From Inmirania thermothiophila (GTDB lineage Bacteria > Pseudomonadota > Gammaproteobacteria > DSM-100275): a stretch of DNA of 64,000 nt. The stretch's first letter is position 1. Each line of letters begins with the position of its first letter. Below, one piece after another: positions 1 through 30,819 of this stretch. The position numbers were made by a program, and so were the translations under genes. The stretch spans positions 1-64,000 of the forward strand of contig NZ_RJVI01000001.1 in NCBI RefSeq assembly GCF_003751635.1, given 5' to 3'. Below the pieces are notes generated by a model that worked only from the letters and a program-made list of their open reading frames with translations, was not told the origin of the DNA and ran no database searches.

Positions 1-91
1 CGTTCGACGTCTCCACCCCAGAACCGTCCGCCTTCACACGAACCCGAACGTTGTAGTCCACCACCCGCTTGACCGCGACCAGTACCTTCAT
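1..91 (-). CDS. etfB: Electron transfer flavoprotein beta subunit, N-terminal fragment
   Basis: Only the first 30 codons are inside the window; the gene continues past the left edge. The N-terminus (MKVLVAVKRVVDYN followed by a VRVKADGSGV stretch) is the typical start of EtfB, the AMP-binding subunit of the flavoprotein that takes electrons from acyl-CoA dehydrogenases and passes them to ETF:quinone oxidoreductase. Its ATG overlaps the stop of the upstream thioesterase gene (ATGA), so the two are probably translationally coupled. Its position at the end of a beta-oxidation operon fits the role. The identification rests on a short but characteristic segment. Confidence 0.85.
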   Translation of the reverse strand, partial: MKVLVAVKRVVDYNVRVRVKADGSGVETSN

Positions 92-627
92 GCCGCTCTC
101 TCCCGTGCCTCGTTCCCGTCCGTGCCCAGTCCGCGCAGGATCCGGGCCGCCTCCGGCAGCGCCGGCGAGGCGCCGCGGTGTCCGGCCGCCGCCAGCACCT
201 CGGCGGTGGGCACCCGCCCCCGCGGCCCGGCGAAGAGCCCCTGCACCCAGGCCGCCGCGCAGAGATCGCCCCCGCGCTCGAAGCGCTGCTCCAGATAGAA
301 CCACTTCTCGTCCCAGCCCGCGACCCGCGTCACCAGCGCATAGCGGGCGAGGGGCGCCAGGGGGCGGCGGAAGCGGATCGCCGCCGCCCCCAGCACCGGC
401 CGCCAGCGCCGGCGCAGCACCGTGCCCAGCAGCCCGGCGCGGCGCAGCAGGTCCAGCCGCCCGAGGTCCATCACCGCCAGGTAGCGGGCGTTGTTCATGT
501 GCCCGTTGAGATCGAGGTCGCCGGGCCACACCCGCAGCGCCAGCACCGAGGGCTCGAGCAGGCCGACGCGCGGGCGCAGCCAGCCGCGCACGCCGAGCAG
601 CCAGAGCAGCCGCAGCCACAGGTTCAT
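88..627 (-). CDS. Acyl-CoA thioesterase-like protein (hot-dog fold, THEM6/4HBT type)
   Basis: A 179-residue protein with a hydrophobic N-terminus followed by a 4HBT-type hot-dog signature: the DLDLNGHMNNARYL segment around residues 37–50 aligns with the active-site region of acyl-CoA/acyl-ACP thioesterases. The expected reaction is hydrolysis of an acyl-CoA thioester, but substrate chain length cannot be read from sequence. It starts 6 nt after the acyl-CoA dehydrogenase stop and overlaps the etfB start, so it belongs to the beta-oxidation operon. A role in releasing stalled or branched acyl-CoA intermediates is inference. Confidence 0.75.
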   Translation of the reverse strand: MNLWLRLLWLLGVRGWLRPRVGLLEPSVLALRVWPGDLDLNGHMNNARYLAVMDLGRLDLLRRAGLLGTVLRRRWRPVLGAAAIRFRRPLAPLARYALVTRVAGWDEKWFYLEQRFERGGDLCAAAWVQGLFAGPRGRVPTAEVLAAAGHRGASPALPEAARILRGLGTDGNEARERAA

Positions 628-2421: not shown

Positions 2422-4743
2422 TCAGTTCCTCAGCGGCTTGCCGGTCTCCAGCATGTGCTCCATGCGGGCCAGCGTGTCGGGATGGCGCACCAGGCGCATG
2501 AAGGCGGCCCGCTCCAGCGCCAGCAGGTCCTCCTCGGCGAGGGCGGCGGTGACGTCGGTCTCGCCCCCCGAGAGCACGCGCGCGAGCTCGCACGCCACCA
2601 CCACGTCGTGGGCGGTGGCCTTGCCCTGCTTGCGGAAGTCCTCGAGGGCCATCTCGAGGGCGACGCGCCCGGCGGGGCCCGGCAGGACGAAGGTGGGCGG
2701 CTCCGGCGGGCGATAGCCCTCGGCCAGCGCCAGGGCGCGGGCCCGGGCCTCGGCGAGGAGGCGGTCGCGGTTCATGGTGATGCCGTCGTCCGGGCCCAGG
2801 TAGCCCAGCTCCCGCGCCTCCTCGGCGGAGGTGGAGACCTTCGCCAGGCTGATGGTCTCGAAGACGCGCATCACCGGCGGCATGGGCCCGCGCGGCCCTC
2901 CCCGGGCGAACCGTGCCAGCAGCTCCTTGCAGCCCCCCCAGGCCGGGATCAGCCCCACGCCCACCTCCACCAGCCCCATGTAGAGCTCGGCGTGGGCCTG
3001 CACCGCATCGCAGTGGAGCAGGATCTCGCAGCCGCCGCCGAGGGCCATCCCCGAGGGCGCCCCCACCACCGGGAAGGGCGCCCGCTTGAGGGCGAGATAG
3101 GTCTCCTGGCCCTCCCGCACCATGGCCTCGATCTGATCCCACAGGGCGAGGTTGGCCGAGTAGAGGAGCAGCCCGAGGTTGGCGCCGGCGGAGAAGTGCT
3201 CGCCCTCGTTGTGGATCACCAGCGCGCGCATGCCGCGCGCGGGGATCTCCTCCACCGCCCGCCGCACCATGGCCAGCACCTGCGGGTCGAGGGCGTTCAT
3301 CTTGGTGTGGAACTCGAGGCAGGCCACGCCCTCGCCCACGTCCCAGAGGCTCGCCGAGCCGTTGCGGGCGAGCGGCTCGCCGCGCCGCTGCACGTCCCTG
3401 AGCAGGAGCACGCCGGGCGCGCGGGGGACCGCGTGCCAGGCCCCGTCCGGCCCCAGCTCCTCGAGCCGCCCCGCCTCGACGCGGTAGAACCCGCCGGCCT
3501 GCGCGGCCCGGGCGAGGAACGGCGGGACTTCCAGCCCGTCCGCGGCGAGCGCCTCGCCGAGCCAGCCCGCGCCGATGCGGTCGGCGAGCTCGAACGGGCC
3601 CCAGCGCCAGTTGTAGCCGAGGCGCATGGCCTCGTCGACGGCGCTCGCCCGCTCGGCGATCTCGGGCACCAGCGCCGCCGCGTAGGCGATGACGCGCAGC
3701 ATCACGTGGCGGGCGTAGCGGCCGCCGCGATCGGGGTGCTCGAGCAGCGCCCGCGGCCCCGTGCGCGCCGCCTCGACGCTCTCGAGCCGCGCCTTGCGCG
3801 CCGGGCGGTACGCGCCGCTCGCCAGATCGAGGGCCTCCTTGAGGCGGCCGCCGTCGTCGCGGCGCAGGCGGTAGAAGCCGCCCTTGCCCTTGCGGCCGGT
3901 GTAGCCCTCCGCGATCATCCGCGCCACCACCGGCGGCACCTCGGCGACCGCGCGCAGCGGATCCCCGGGCGGCAGGGTCGCGAGCAGGCTCTCCATCAGG
4001 TGCGGCATGAGGTCGATGCCCACCAGGTCGGCGAGCCCGAACACCCCCGTCTTGGGGATGCCCAGGGGACGGCCCAGGACGGCGTCGGCCTCCTCCACCG
4101 GCACCCCCTGCTCGATCGCCGCGGCGAGCGCGGTCTGCATCCAGAAGATGCCGATGCGGTTGGCGATGAAGCCGGGCGTGTCCTTGCAGCGCACCACGCC
4201 CTTGCCCAGGCGGCGGTCGCAGAAGGCGGCCACCGCCTCCACCGCCTCGGGCCGCACCTCGGGCCCCGCCACCAGCTCCAGCAGGCGCATGTAGCGCGGC
4301 GGGTTGAAGAAGTGCGTGATGAGGAAGGAGGCGGCGAAGGGCTCCGGCAGCCCCGCCACCAGCCGCGCGCGGGGGATGGTGGAGGTGTTGGACGAGACCA
4401 CGGCGTCGGGCCGGCGCACGGCCTCGATGCGCCGGTAGAGCGCCTGCTTGACGTCGAGCCGCTCGACCACGGCCTCGATGATCCAGTCGCACTCGGCGAG
4501 CCGCTCCAGGTGGTCCTCCACGTTGCCGGGGGTGACGAGCCGGGCGGCGCCGCGGTGCATGAAGGCGGCCGGCTTCGCCTTGCGCAGCCGCTCCAGCGCG
4601 CCCTTGGCGAGGGCGTCGCGGTCCTCCGCCCCCTCGGGCACGATGTCCAGCAGCAGCACCGGGACGCCGGCGTTGGCGAGATGGGCGGCGATCCCGGCGC
4701 CCATGACGCCGGCGCCGATCACCGCGACCTTGCGGATCTCCAT
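2422..4743 (-). CDS. 3-hydroxyacyl-CoA dehydrogenase / enoyl-CoA hydratase fusion (FadN type)
   Basis: A 773-residue bifunctional beta-oxidation enzyme. The order is dehydrogenase first: a Rossmann motif VIGAGVMGAG at residues 8–17 opens the NAD-binding domain, and a crotonase domain follows at roughly residues 440–650, with GMALGGGCEILLHCD and GLVEVGVGLIPAWGG carrying the two catalytic-type glutamates. This order is that of Bacillus FadN-like proteins and is reversed relative to E. coli FadB. The ATG at 4743 is chosen because it begins the Rossmann domain and overlaps the thiolase stop (TGATG). Upstream in-frame residues lack domain sense. It works with the adjacent thiolase in the cytoplasm. 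Confidence 0.92.
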   Translation of the reverse strand: MEIRKVAVIGAGVMGAGIAAHLANAGVPVLLLDIVPEGAEDRDALAKGALERLRKAKPAAFMHRGAARLVTPGNVEDHLERLAECDWIIEAVVERLDVKQALYRRIEAVRRPDAVVSSNTSTIPRARLVAGLPEPFAASFLITHFFNPPRYMRLLELVAGPEVRPEAVEAVAAFCDRRLGKGVVRCKDTPGFIANRIGIFWMQTALAAAIEQGVPVEEADAVLGRPLGIPKTGVFGLADLVGIDLMPHLMESLLATLPPGDPLRAVAEVPPVVARMIAEGYTGRKGKGGFYRLRRDDGGRLKEALDLASGAYRPARKARLESVEAARTGPRALLEHPDRGGRYARHVMLRVIAYAAALVPEIAERASAVDEAMRLGYNWRWGPFELADRIGAGWLGEALAADGLEVPPFLARAAQAGGFYRVEAGRLEELGPDGAWHAVPRAPGVLLLRDVQRRGEPLARNGSASLWDVGEGVACLEFHTKMNALDPQVLAMVRRAVEEIPARGMRALVIHNEGEHFSAGANLGLLLYSANLALWDQIEAMVREGQETYLALKRAPFPVVGAPSGMALGGGCEILLHCDAVQAHAELYMGLVEVGVGLIPAWGGCKELLARFARGGPRGPMPPVMRVFETISLAKVSTSAEEARELGYLGPDDGITMNRDRLLAEARARALALAEGYRPPEPPTFVLPGPAGRVALEMALEDFRKQGKATAHDVVVACELARVLSGGETDVTAALAEEDLLALERAAFMRLVRHPDTLARMEHMLETGKPLRN

Positions 4744-28042: not shown

Positions 28043-28849
28043 CTATGAACCCCCGCCGATCTCGAGGTCCACGGGGTGGCGCAGACGGATGCGCCACGCC
28101 CCGCCGCCGCGGTAGGGGATGCCGCGCACGCCGACGCGCCGCCCCCGAAGCCGCTGCCAGTCGATGCCCTCGAACCAGGCCCAGTCCTCGCGCGCGACGC
28201 GCACGGCGACACCGCCGCGAAGCTCGAGCCAGACCGAGCGCCGCGTCCGCCGCACCGCCGCCACCTCGCCCTCCAGCCAGACGAAGCGCCCGGCCTCCTC
28301 AAGGCGGGCCCGCGCCGCATCCTGCCGCTGGTAGCGCGCTAGCGCCCACAGTCCGCGCCGGGCGCTGCGCGCCTCGGCCTCGGCACGGCGGTAGCAGGCC
28401 AGCCCGGCGACGTTGGGGGGCACCACCAGCGAGACGGCGAGCCCCTCCCGCAGCAGCACCTCCTCCACCGTGCGCCCGTCCGGGAGCAGGGCATGGGCGA
28501 GCAGCCGCCCGTAGCCGTCCGCGCGCTCGGCGTCGTAGCGCAGGCGCAGCCGCCCCTGCGCCCCGGCCACGAGGGCCTCGAGGCGGCCTCTCGCCTCGCG
28601 CGCCAGGGGCTCGTCCGGACGGCCGTCGCGGCCGAGCTCCGGGGTGTCGATGCCGATCAGGCGCAGGTGGCGGCCGCCCGCCAGCACCAGCGTGTCGCCG
28701 TCGATGACGTGGCGCACCCGCACCACCTCGTCGGCGGCCCCGGCGAGGCAGCCGGCGCGCGCGGGCCCGGCGAGCGCGAGGGCCAGGCCCAAAAGGACGA
28801 GGGCGCCCCAGCGGGGCGCCCTCGTCTCGATCCGGGCCGGCCACGCCAC
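28043..28849 (-). CDS. Exported thermonuclease-family (SNase-like) nuclease
   Basis: A 268-residue protein with a signal peptide (residues 1–~33, ending PARAG) and a staphylococcal-nuclease domain. Visible are RHVIDGDTLVL, LRLIGIDTPELGRDG (the metal and Arg region) and the YGRLLAHALLPDGRTVEEVL catalytic-loop segment. The SNase part ends near residue 175. The C-terminal ~90 residues form a beta-rich extra domain (LEGEVAAVRRTRRSVWLELRG), reminiscent of an OB-type fold found after some such domains. It starts 9 bases after the rpmE stop, but a strong terminator-like hairpin lies within its first codons, which should limit read-through from rpmE. Confidence 0.87.
   Translation of the reverse strand: MAWPARIETRAPRWGALVLLGLALALAGPARAGCLAGAADEVVRVRHVIDGDTLVLAGGRHLRLIGIDTPELGRDGRPDEPLAREARGRLEALVAGAQGRLRLRYDAERADGYGRLLAHALLPDGRTVEEVLLREGLAVSLVVPPNVAGLACYRRAEAEARSARRGLWALARYQRQDAARARLEEAGRFVWLEGEVAAVRRTRRSVWLELRGGVAVRVAREDWAWFEGIDWQRLRGRRVGVRGIPYRGGGAWRIRLRHPVDLEIGGGS
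28796..28826 (-). terminator. Intrinsic terminator of rpmE, lying inside the 5' end of the nuclease gene
   Basis: A perfect 14-bp GC-rich stem (28796–28809 with 28813–28826) and a 3-base loop are followed, in the rpmE direction, by CCTTTT. This is a textbook intrinsic terminator about 33 bases after the rpmE stop. It overlaps codons ~8–18 of the nuclease gene, so it may act as an attenuator. Confidence 0.75.
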
Positions 28850-28858
28850 GGCGGCAGG

Positions 28859-29062
28859 CTAGTCGAGGCCGTACTTGCGGCGGAACTTCTCGACCCGGCC
28901 CGCGGTGTCGACGATCTTCTGCTGGCCCGTGAAGAAGGGATGGCACTGCGAGCAGACCTCGACGTGGAGGTCGCGGCCCGCGGTGGAGCGGGTCTTGAAG
29001 CTGTTGCCGCAGCTGCAGGTGACCGTGATCTCTTCGTAGCGCGGGTGGATGTCCGGTTTCAT
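28859..29062 (-). CDS. rpmE: 50S ribosomal protein L31, zinc-binding (C+) type
   Basis: A 67-residue ribosomal protein L31 ([19 protein letters not shown], ending RRKYGLD). The four zinc-ligand cysteines are C16, C18, C37 and C40, so this is the C+ form that is replaced by the zinc-free paralogue under zinc starvation in many bacteria. The length is normal. It has its own promoter (29137–29109) and terminator. Confidence 0.97.
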
Positions 29063-29108
29063 GGCCTTCAGTCCTCGTCCCTTCCGGCAGGCGGGGGAAA
29101 GGCGCGAG

Positions 29109-29137
29109 ATGGTACGCGCGTTCCGCCGGGTTGGCAA
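29109..29137 (-). promoter_or_regulatory. rpmE: rpmE promoter
   Basis: On the minus strand TTGCCA (29137–29132), a 17-bp spacer and TACCAT (29114–29109) lie 46 bases upstream of the rpmE ATG. The -35 matches the consensus in five of six positions and the -10 in four of six. Confidence 0.6.
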
Positions 29138-29241
29138 GACGATCGGCGGAGCGCACGGCGCCCCGGGGACTTGGCGCGCCTTCACGAGACCGCGCCTCAG
29201 GAGCGGCCGCCAATCCCACGCAGAGCCGCGGGATTTGTCCC

Positions 29242-29276
29242 TTTTCCACAGAGCCTGTGGAAAACTCTGTGGATGT
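29242..29276. other. Cluster of three DnaA-box-like nonamers
   Basis: TTTTCCACA at 29242–29250, its reverse complement at 29256–29264, and ACATCCACA on the minus strand at 29268–29276. The first two form a perfect 10-bp inverted repeat with a 3-base spacer (29242–29264). Each differs from the consensus TTATCCACA by one or two bases. A fourth, perfect TTATNCACA box is at 29445–29453. Confidence 0.6.
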
Positions 29277-29327
29277 CGATCGAGACAACGGTTGCAAGCG
29301 GCGTCCCGGCGCCGCCGCGAACGCGCC

Positions 29328-29342
29328 GGTCAATTTTTGACC
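29328..29342. promoter_or_regulatory. Palindrome GGTCAA-TTT-TTGACC
   Basis: A perfect 6-bp inverted repeat around TTT, within a local AT-rich patch. It may be an operator or part of the unwinding region suggested by the neighbouring DnaA-box-like sites; its role is unknown. Confidence 0.4.
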
Positions 29343-29353
29343 TGCGCAGGAAC

Positions 29354-29369
29354 GCTTGAACAATCAAGC
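29354..29369. promoter_or_regulatory. Palindrome GCTTGA-ACAA-TCAAGC
   Basis: A perfect 6-bp inverted repeat with a 4-base centre, 11 bases after the preceding palindrome and 154 bases upstream of rimO. It resembles a dimeric repressor site; the regulator is unknown. Confidence 0.4.
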
Positions 29370-29444
29370 CGTTACGGATTGAGGTCGGGCGCGACCCGGG
29401 AGCGGGCCCGTCCCCTGGAGGCGCGGGCAGGCCCACCGCCGCCC

Positions 29445-29453
29445 TGTGCATAA
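29445..29453 (-). other. Canonical DnaA box
   Basis: The minus-strand sequence TTATGCACA matches the strict consensus TTATNCACA exactly. It lies about 170 bases from the three looser boxes in the same intergenic region. Confidence 0.6.
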
Positions 29454-29523
29454 CCGCAGAAAACCCTTGCCGTCGGCGCCCGTCTGTGGTACTGGGGCGC
29501 ACCCACCCCGGAGGGCGGATCCC

Positions 29524-30819
29524 ATGCAGCGCAGGCCCCGCATCGGCCTCGTCAGCCTCGGCTGCGCCAAGGCGCTGGTGGACTCGGAGCGGCTCCTCGG
29601 CCGCCTCCGCGCCGCCGGCTACGACACGGCGCCAGACTACGCCTCGGCCGACCTCGTGGTCGTCAACACCTGCGGCTTCATCGAGGCCGCCGAGGCCGAG
29701 TCGCTGGACGCGATCGCCGAGGCCATGCGCGAGAACGGCCGGGTGGTGGTGACGGGCTGCCTCGGCGGGCGCGCCGAGCGCCTGCGCGAGCGCTTCCCCG
29801 GCCTCGTCGCCGTCACCGGTCCCGCGGCCTTCGACGAGGTGGTCTCGGCGGTGACGCGGGTGCTGCCCGCCCCCGGCCCCCGCCCCGGCGCGGCGACCCC
29901 CATCGTGCGCCTGACCCCGCCCCACTACGCCTACCTCAAGATCGCGGAGGGCTGCGACCACCGCTGCACCTTCTGCATCATCCCGCAGCTTCGCGGCCCG
30001 CTCGCGAGCCGCCCGCCCGAGGACGTCCTCGCCGAGGCCGAGGCCCGCGTCGCCGCCGGCGCCCGCGAGCTGGTGGTCATCGCCCAGGACACCGCCGCCT
30101 ACGGGCGCGACCTGCCGCCGCGGGGGCGGGCATGGCCCGGCATCGCCGCTCTCGCCGCCGCGCTGGGCGAGCTCGGCGTGTGGGTGCGCCTGCACTACCT
30201 CTATCCCTACCGCGCCCTGGAGCGGCTGGTGCCGCTCATGGCGGAGGGCCGCATCCTCCCCTACCTCGACATGCCGCTGCAGCACGCAAGCCCCGCGGTG
30301 CTGCGGCGCATGCGGCGGCCTGCACGCAGCGCCGACGTGCTCGCCCGCCTCGCCCGCTGGCGCGCCCTGTGCCCGGACCTCACCGTGCGCAGCACCTTCA
30401 TCGTCGGCTTCCCGGGCGAGACCGAGGACGACTTCCGCCGGCTGCTGGACTTCCTCGAGGCCGCCGAGCTGGACCGTGTCGGCTGCTTCACCTACTCGGC
30501 CGTGGCCGGCGCCGCCGCCAATGCGCTCCCGGGGGCGGTCCCCGAGGAGGTCAAGCAGGAGCGGCTCGCCCGCCTCATGACCCTGCAGCAGGCGATCAGC
30601 CGGCGGCGGCTGCGCCGCTGGGTGGGGCGCCGCATCCCGGTCCTCGTCGACGCCGTGGAGGGCGACGTCGCCCTCGGCCGCGGCCCGGCCGACGCCCCCG
30701 AGGTGGACGGCTGCGTGCACGTGCGCGACGCCGCCGGCCTGCGGCCGGGGGACCTGGTGGAGGTGGAGGTGGAGCGCAGCGGCGACCACGACCTCTGGGG
30801 CCGGCCGCTCGGCCCCTGA
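29524..30819 (+). CDS. rimO: Ribosomal protein S12 methylthiotransferase RimO
   Basis: A 431-residue radical-SAM methylthiotransferase that modifies Asp89 of ribosomal protein S12. The N-terminal MTTase domain holds the three auxiliary-cluster cysteines C14 ([12 protein letters not shown]), C50 ([11 protein letters not shown]) and C79 (VVTGCLGG). The radical-SAM cluster is C144-x3-C148-x2-C151 (CDHRCTFC), and a TRAM domain closes the protein. The ALVDSE signature separates RimO from MiaB. The ATG at 29524 has a GGAGGG ribosome binding site; an upstream in-frame ATG lacks one. Confidence 0.97.

Follow-up and report, generated by a model that had tools for sequence, protein, structure and literature searches.

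The window, by which we mean the whole 64,000-nucleotide stretch analysed, carries between rpmE and rimO the motifs listed in Table 1. These include the ones named by the original prediction, which had described three loose DnaA boxes within 35 bp (located at 29242–29276), two of them as a perfect 10-bp inverted repeat, together with one strict box, an AT-rich palindrome and a second dyad. The last three correspond here to the distal reverse box at +171, the Fis-type dyad at +54 and the IHF site at +88, respectively. The inverted repeat is made of boxes I and II (TTTTCCACAG/CTGTGGAAAA). The rpmE gene is divergent from the element and is faced by the box I side at a distance of 180 bp. The region has a G+C content of 68.8%, compared with 74.9% in the whole window.

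Table 1 Features of the rpmE–rimO gap and of the second copy (offsets are counted from the end of the 32-nt core).
Feature	Position	Strand	Details
Whole DARS-type element	29242..29453	+	Three-box core, AT-centred dyad, IHF site, reverse DnaA box
DnaA box I	29242..29250	+	TTTTCCACA
DnaA box II	29256..29264	−	TTTTCCACA; 14 bp from box I, opposite orientation
DnaA box III	29268..29276	−	ACATCCACA; 12 bp from box II; 2 mismatches to TTATCCACA, weaker
AT-centred dyad	29328..29342		GGTCAATTTTTGACC; no strand; matches Fis consensus GnnYAnnnnnTRnnC; +54 after the core
Second dyad	29354–29369		GCTTGA-ACAA-TCAAGC; read from sequence
IHF consensus site	29362..29374	+	AATCAAGCCGTTA; 0 mismatches to WATCAANNNNTTR; +88
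Distal reverse DnaA box	29445..29453	−	TTATGCACA; +171
rpmE (ribosomal protein L31)	28859..29062	−	TIGR00105, 118.5 bits (cut-off 38.35); start codon is our choice
rimO (S12 methylthiotransferase)	29524..30819	+	TIGR01125, 519.6 bits (cut-off 356.95); start is our choice, earlier GTG at 29446
Putative rimO promoter	29337..29364	+	Sigma-70-like hexamers TTGACC-16-AACAAT; overlap dyad and IHF site
Putative rpmE promoter	29109..29137	−	Sigma-70-like hexamers TTGCCA-17-TACCAT
Second copy of the element	C2:477450–477659		Positions 3951–4160 of locus L112

The strict AT-centred Fis pattern (GNTYAWWWWWTRANC) matched once in the 839 kb sampled of the genome, at the +54 dyad, and the exact IHF consensus matched twice in the same 839 kb, at the element's site and at one other. 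The Fis and IHF consensus sequences were taken from PMC4245941 and PMC4585315, that of Fis from PMC4245941. A structured RNA was considered and rejected, as the four Rfam matches were all under the gathering score and fell at 28791–28873, outside the element.

The sequence TTWTNCACA was observed three times in the window, against 0.07 expected, every time in the rpmE–rimO gap, and 0 of 100 shuffles gave three. The original prediction had proposed a genome-wide box count; in the 2.61-Mb genome we found eight exact TTWTNCACA, with three in the window element, two in a second copy (C2:477464 and C2:477651) and three elsewhere. Allowing one mismatch to TTATCCACA gave 57 places genome-wide, compared with 38 for the reversed pattern; isolated loose boxes thus differ little from background, and it is the clusters that stand out. 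Shuffles, genome counts and reversed-pattern controls rule out a chance origin of the boxes.

The pattern TGTGGAAAACTCTGTGGA, with up to 3 mismatches allowed, occurs at two places genome-wide, both perfect, in the window element and at C2:477464 (reversed control, 0). In both copies a forward box I is followed by two reverse boxes, II after 14 bp and III after a further 12 bp, measured from start to start. Downstream of its core, the second copy carries GGTCACAAGATGACC at +54, a one-mismatch IHF site at +87 and TTTTGCACA on the − strand at +169, and the genes on either side of it look to us like a regulator of the IclR type and a dehydratase of the MaoC type (NCBIfam matches below cut-offs).

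The other exact TTWTNCACA, at C1:486246, C1:900118 and C3:232276, had no second exact box nearby. The genome's only perfect TTATCCACA, with two inverted repeats around ACAACATCTTGTG beside it, was observed at L114 ~1747–1772 and 1935–1952 (C1:486246–486271 and 486434–486451), upstream of apparent Hsp20 and DnaJ-type genes, named by eye. A CRISPR-like array with a 36-nt repeat was also observed at C1:900559–900999 (L113 ~2560–3000), one spacer of which has a DnaA-box-like CTCTGTGGACAAACC.

A replication origin was among the meanings first proposed for the locus, and dense DnaA boxes with an IHF site are also features of E. coli oriC (PMC4245941). GC skew, sampled in stretches of ~20 kb, was negative at C1 1–220 kb, near zero at 220–255 kb, positive beyond and about zero at the C1 end. 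There was no change at C1 29 kb; the sign switches near dnaA (C1:269210), ~240 kb away from the window element, and the skew minimum that had been suggested as a check is not at the element. Furthermore, the window's 15 lowest-G+C 100-bp stretches are all elsewhere, and in the related genome G034 the skew turns at 560–580 kb, where dnaA lies (574 kb), while neither of its two elements coincides with the turn. Among 11 relatives (nine single-contig genomes and two others), 21 of 21 core places, a few of which have 3 mismatches and are possibly due to chance, were at least 93 kb from dnaA, the nearest being in G075. On GC skew in the sampled stretches and on the distance from dnaA in relatives, we reject the element as oriC, a reading to which we leave practically no weight. 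Its position away from the skew turn at dnaA, in the sampled stretches, is the off-origin one looked for in a DARS.

The gap between dnaA and dnaN (L001 2508–2700) contains loose TTGTCCACA-type boxes and is perhaps part of the real origin region. On C2, positive skew gives way to negative skew near 410 kb, and at this turn lies a dif-like sequence (C2:413167; L165 13167), with 6 of 28 mismatches to E. coli dif. Only ~64 kb separate the second copy from this dif-like site, a position that sets it apart from DARS1 and DARS2 of E. coli. Balanced replication arms would require C3 to be on the left arm, and the second copy's distance from the origin depends on the placement of C3.

A core pattern of 23 set positions, with up to 3 mismatches allowed, was present in 122 of 140 genomes of the class (the host's own included; each its own family, by rows), whereas the reversed control was present in 3 of 140. 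In the phylum sample, the core pattern was found in 182 of 299 genomes and the reversed control in 9 of 299; by row count, 104 of 114 genomes inside the class had it, versus 78 of 185 outside. The original prediction had named as grounds for its refutation an origin elsewhere together with a genome-wide box density no lower than that of the locus, or boxes not conserved in relatives. The outcome is split: the origin does lie at another place, but boxes are far denser at this locus than in the genome as a whole, and relatives retain them.

We surveyed 150 loci holding 146 distinct elements, among the matches listed: 30 plus 68 picked from the class search, 16 from the relatives' searches, 32 picked from the phylum search, the window element, the C2 copy and two E. 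coli sites. The 55 relatives retrieved share no more than the class with the host. The picks excluded places with 3 mismatches, readings of the same inverted boxes that overlapped in reverse, and a number of further places; one best core was kept per locus, and places were chosen by the core alone, ignoring the downstream sites. Among the matches listed, the 146 elements revealed downstream peaks for the Fis consensus at 53–55, the IHF site at 87–90 and the reverse box at 168–175, with no such fixed-offset peaks on the upstream side. Of the 144 elements with enough sequence, again among the matches listed, 57 had the Fis consensus, 37 an exact IHF site and 70 an exact box, compared with 0–3, 0 and 0–1, respectively, in six shifted-offset controls. 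With one mismatch allowed (144 elements or fewer, among the matches listed), the IHF site was found in 83 versus 0–4 at shifted offsets, and the box in 82 versus 1–12 (12 at +20).

We then restricted the count to 133 same-class elements, leaving aside the E. coli rows and keeping to the matches listed. The Fis consensus was at +52..56 in 51 of these, the IHF site (up to one mismatch) at +86..91 in 82, and the reverse box (up to one mismatch) at +166..177 in 81. Counted per element, 24 had no downstream site, 35 had one, 43 had two and 31 had all three, so that 74 of the 133 elements among the matches listed have at least two; random offsets, applied to elements with 400 nt downstream, gave a mean of 0.02 elements with at least two sites and a maximum of 1. 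The 31 full three-site elements (among the matches listed) come from 24 genomes. Similarly, downstream dyad symmetry was highest at centre +61 (3.06 of 7 pairs, versus a mean of 1.93, sd 0.20), and at least 5 pairs at +61 were found in 39 of 133 elements among the matches listed, versus 8–13 at three control places. The literature searched, in the parts available, describes neither a module with sites at +54, +88 and +171 nor a DARS beside rpmE.

The box–IHF–box part of this geometry resembles E. coli datA, in which DnaA boxes also stand on both sides of an IHF site, and DnaA titration had been among the proposed meanings. A titration or datA-like site would use boxes flanking an IHF bend to gather ATP-DnaA and store it or speed its hydrolysis; since five of the eight rare consensus boxes of the genome are in the two elements, the clusters would matter for titration. 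However, datA (locus L344; boxes at 2245+ and 2407+, IHF site at 2310−) has its boxes and IHF site oriented otherwise and has no three-box core in +/−/− orientation at 14 and 12 bp, whereas the core of the window element matches those of both DARS exactly. Titration alone, moreover, would not require the dyad, the IHF site and the box to keep set distances of the kind seen in the 74 of 133 elements with at least two sites. Titration is still a rival, and we consider it improbable as the element's main function.

A DARS reading calls for the proteins of the DnaA cycle. The genome encodes DnaA, Hda (215.7 bits, cut-off 194.8) and IHF-alpha (159.2 bits, cut-off 120.25), with two further matches that may be of either IHF or HU type. 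The best Fis-like candidate scored 84.8–85.7 bits, below the curated cut-off of 99; the gene before it reads from its sequence as what we take to be dusB, and the usual place of fis is downstream of dusB. Among the matches listed, elements of other classes had the +54 dyad in 6 of 9, the IHF site in 1 of 9 and the distal box in 0 of 9. Fis is limited to relatives of E. coli, according to PMC4245941, and the dyad may therefore not be a Fis site everywhere; if the other-class hosts have no Fis, the +54 dyad would have another binder there. In the individual other-class elements L312, L314, L315, L337, L338 and L339, we observed an AT-centred dyad at +53/54, in some of the TTGCCTA..TAGGCAA type, mostly without an IHF site or distal box.

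The gene neighbours bear on another proposed meaning, DnaA control of rpmE and rimO, in which Fis and IHF might also take part. The sigma-70-like hexamers overlap the dyad/IHF region on the + strand and precede rpmE on the − strand. Furthermore, among the matches listed, 10 of the other 145 elements, each from a different family, have rpmE inside their locus (a match in L260, at 35% identity, was excluded), and in 8 of those 10 it starts ~120–350 bp off on the box I side, as in the window (distances by subtraction). In E. coli, DnaA bound at DARS1 has a second effect, repression of a uvrB promoter (PMC6015884), which indicates that replication and promoter roles can coexist. Against a main role in promoter control, the module is also found beside other genes, namely at the second copy on C2 and at uvrB in other genomes, and a pure promoter role leaves two copies with the same geometry unexplained. 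The rimO gene follows the element in L201 (G034), L286 and L150, and also in L006 and L059, which were fetched for rimO; the core was in the flank of 3 of 109 other rimO loci (L006, L011 and L059, L011 being the G034 locus), so the link between element and rimO is not general and the place beside rimO is kept in a minority. We therefore regard promoter control as very unlikely to be what the element is for.

Beside uvrB, the E. coli DARS1 place, we found 12 of 145 elements, from seven families and with E. coli itself included, among the matches listed. L330 has 3 of 3 downstream sites, and L340 and L341 have 2 of 3, all three genomes being of one family; the other nine uvrB-side elements have one downstream site or none. 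L330, L340 and L341 link the DARS1 place to the downstream module, on a narrow base. One genome of the host's class encodes a UvrB that shares 91% identity with the E. coli protein, which makes the host a gammaproteobacterium.

The element is most likely a DARS promoting ADP release from DnaA, and thus a replication-timing switch, a reading to which we give, judging from the sequence, a probability of roughly three in four. This was one of the meanings in the original prediction, which is partly supported as a whole; the DARS-like part is well supported by anatomy, that is, by the exact orientation and spacing of the DARS1/DARS2 core and by the conserved module. Weighing against the DARS reading are the weak box III, a site order unlike that of DARS2 and the Fis candidate below cut-off, as well as the 24 of 133 elements (among the matches listed) that have no module and the uvrB-side elements, most of which have one site or none.

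From the sites and their spacing, we infer the following course of protein binding, DNA bending, ADP release and feedback. Two ADP-DnaA molecules on boxes I and II would meet head to head, with a third DnaA on box III; head-to-head ADP-DnaA on boxes I/II loses its ADP according to PMC8682772 and PMC5742627. The three-DnaA complex would release ADP, and the empty DnaA would leave, take up ATP and again fire the true origin near dnaA. IHF would bend the DNA at +88 and a Fis-type protein would sit on the +54 dyad, so that the arm may fold and bring the +171 reverse box near the core; such folding could make nucleotide exchange depend on cell-cycle and growth state. DnaA on the distal box could feed back, perhaps in the role of DARS2 box V, where ATP-DnaA displaces Fis and switches the site off (PMC8682772).

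In the literature searched, as far as its available parts go, DnaA recharging has been worked out in E. coli. The E. coli core joined to a different, rigid accessory module across many families would make DnaA recharging an old, general part of replication timing. The conserved module would give the geometry of the active complex and reveal what in the E. coli sites is particular to that lineage, and a compact natural DARS of ~210 bp would be suited to structural work.

We compared the element with the two E. coli K-12 sites. The feature common to DARS1 and DARS2 is a shared box spacing with box I opposite to boxes II and III (PMC5742627). The boxes are at 2108 (+), 2122 (−) and 2134 (−) of L117 in DARS1 (bioD–uvrB) and at 3136 (+), 3150 (−) and 3162 (−) of L118 in the DARS2 core (mutH–rppH), and the +/−/− order at 14 and 12 bp is identical in both copies of our element, DARS1 and DARS2. 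DARS1 thus has the same three DnaA boxes in the same orientation and spacing, and elements upstream of uvrB are present in several other families. DARS1 differs in its position between bioD and uvrB, whereas the window element lies between rpmE and rimO, and in its downstream side, which has no dyad at +54 or IHF site at +88 and only a one-mismatch box, TTTTTAACA, at +171.

DARS2 shares the core geometry and is described as having, on the same flank of its core, sites for both IHF and Fis as well as an additional DnaA box. It depends on IHF and Fis (PMC4245941), DARS2 homologues in E. coli relatives have been reported (PMC4245941 and PMC8682772), and DARS-like sequences are conserved across many proteobacterial species (PMC10380432). 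Our consensus scan of DARS2 revealed IHF-like sites at +61 and +77 (3 bp apart, as are IBS1-2 in the paper) and a Fis consensus at +113. The consensus box that comes next, on the + strand at +179, we took as box V; none of the three downstream sites is at the offsets of the window element. Farther downstream than its core, the E. coli DARS2 region (L118 3452–3486) also has another set of boxes spaced 14/12 (TTATCCCAG / TTATCCACA / weak box). The window element likewise has putative IHF and Fis sites beside its core, but the E. coli order of core–IHF–Fis–box V differs from the order core–dyad (+54)–IHF (+88)–reverse box (+171) found here.

The core is thus of a known kind, and the order core–dyad–IHF–box differs from that of E. 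coli DARS2. As a tentative reading, for which we see less than an even chance, the ancestral DARS of the class may have been one rigid ~210 bp element working as a folded nucleoprotein machine. The factor on its +54 dyad would be older than, or other than, Fis, because the dyad is also found in other-class elements. E. coli DARS1, with its worn +171 box, and the rearranged DARS2 could then be reduced or rebuilt descendants of this element.
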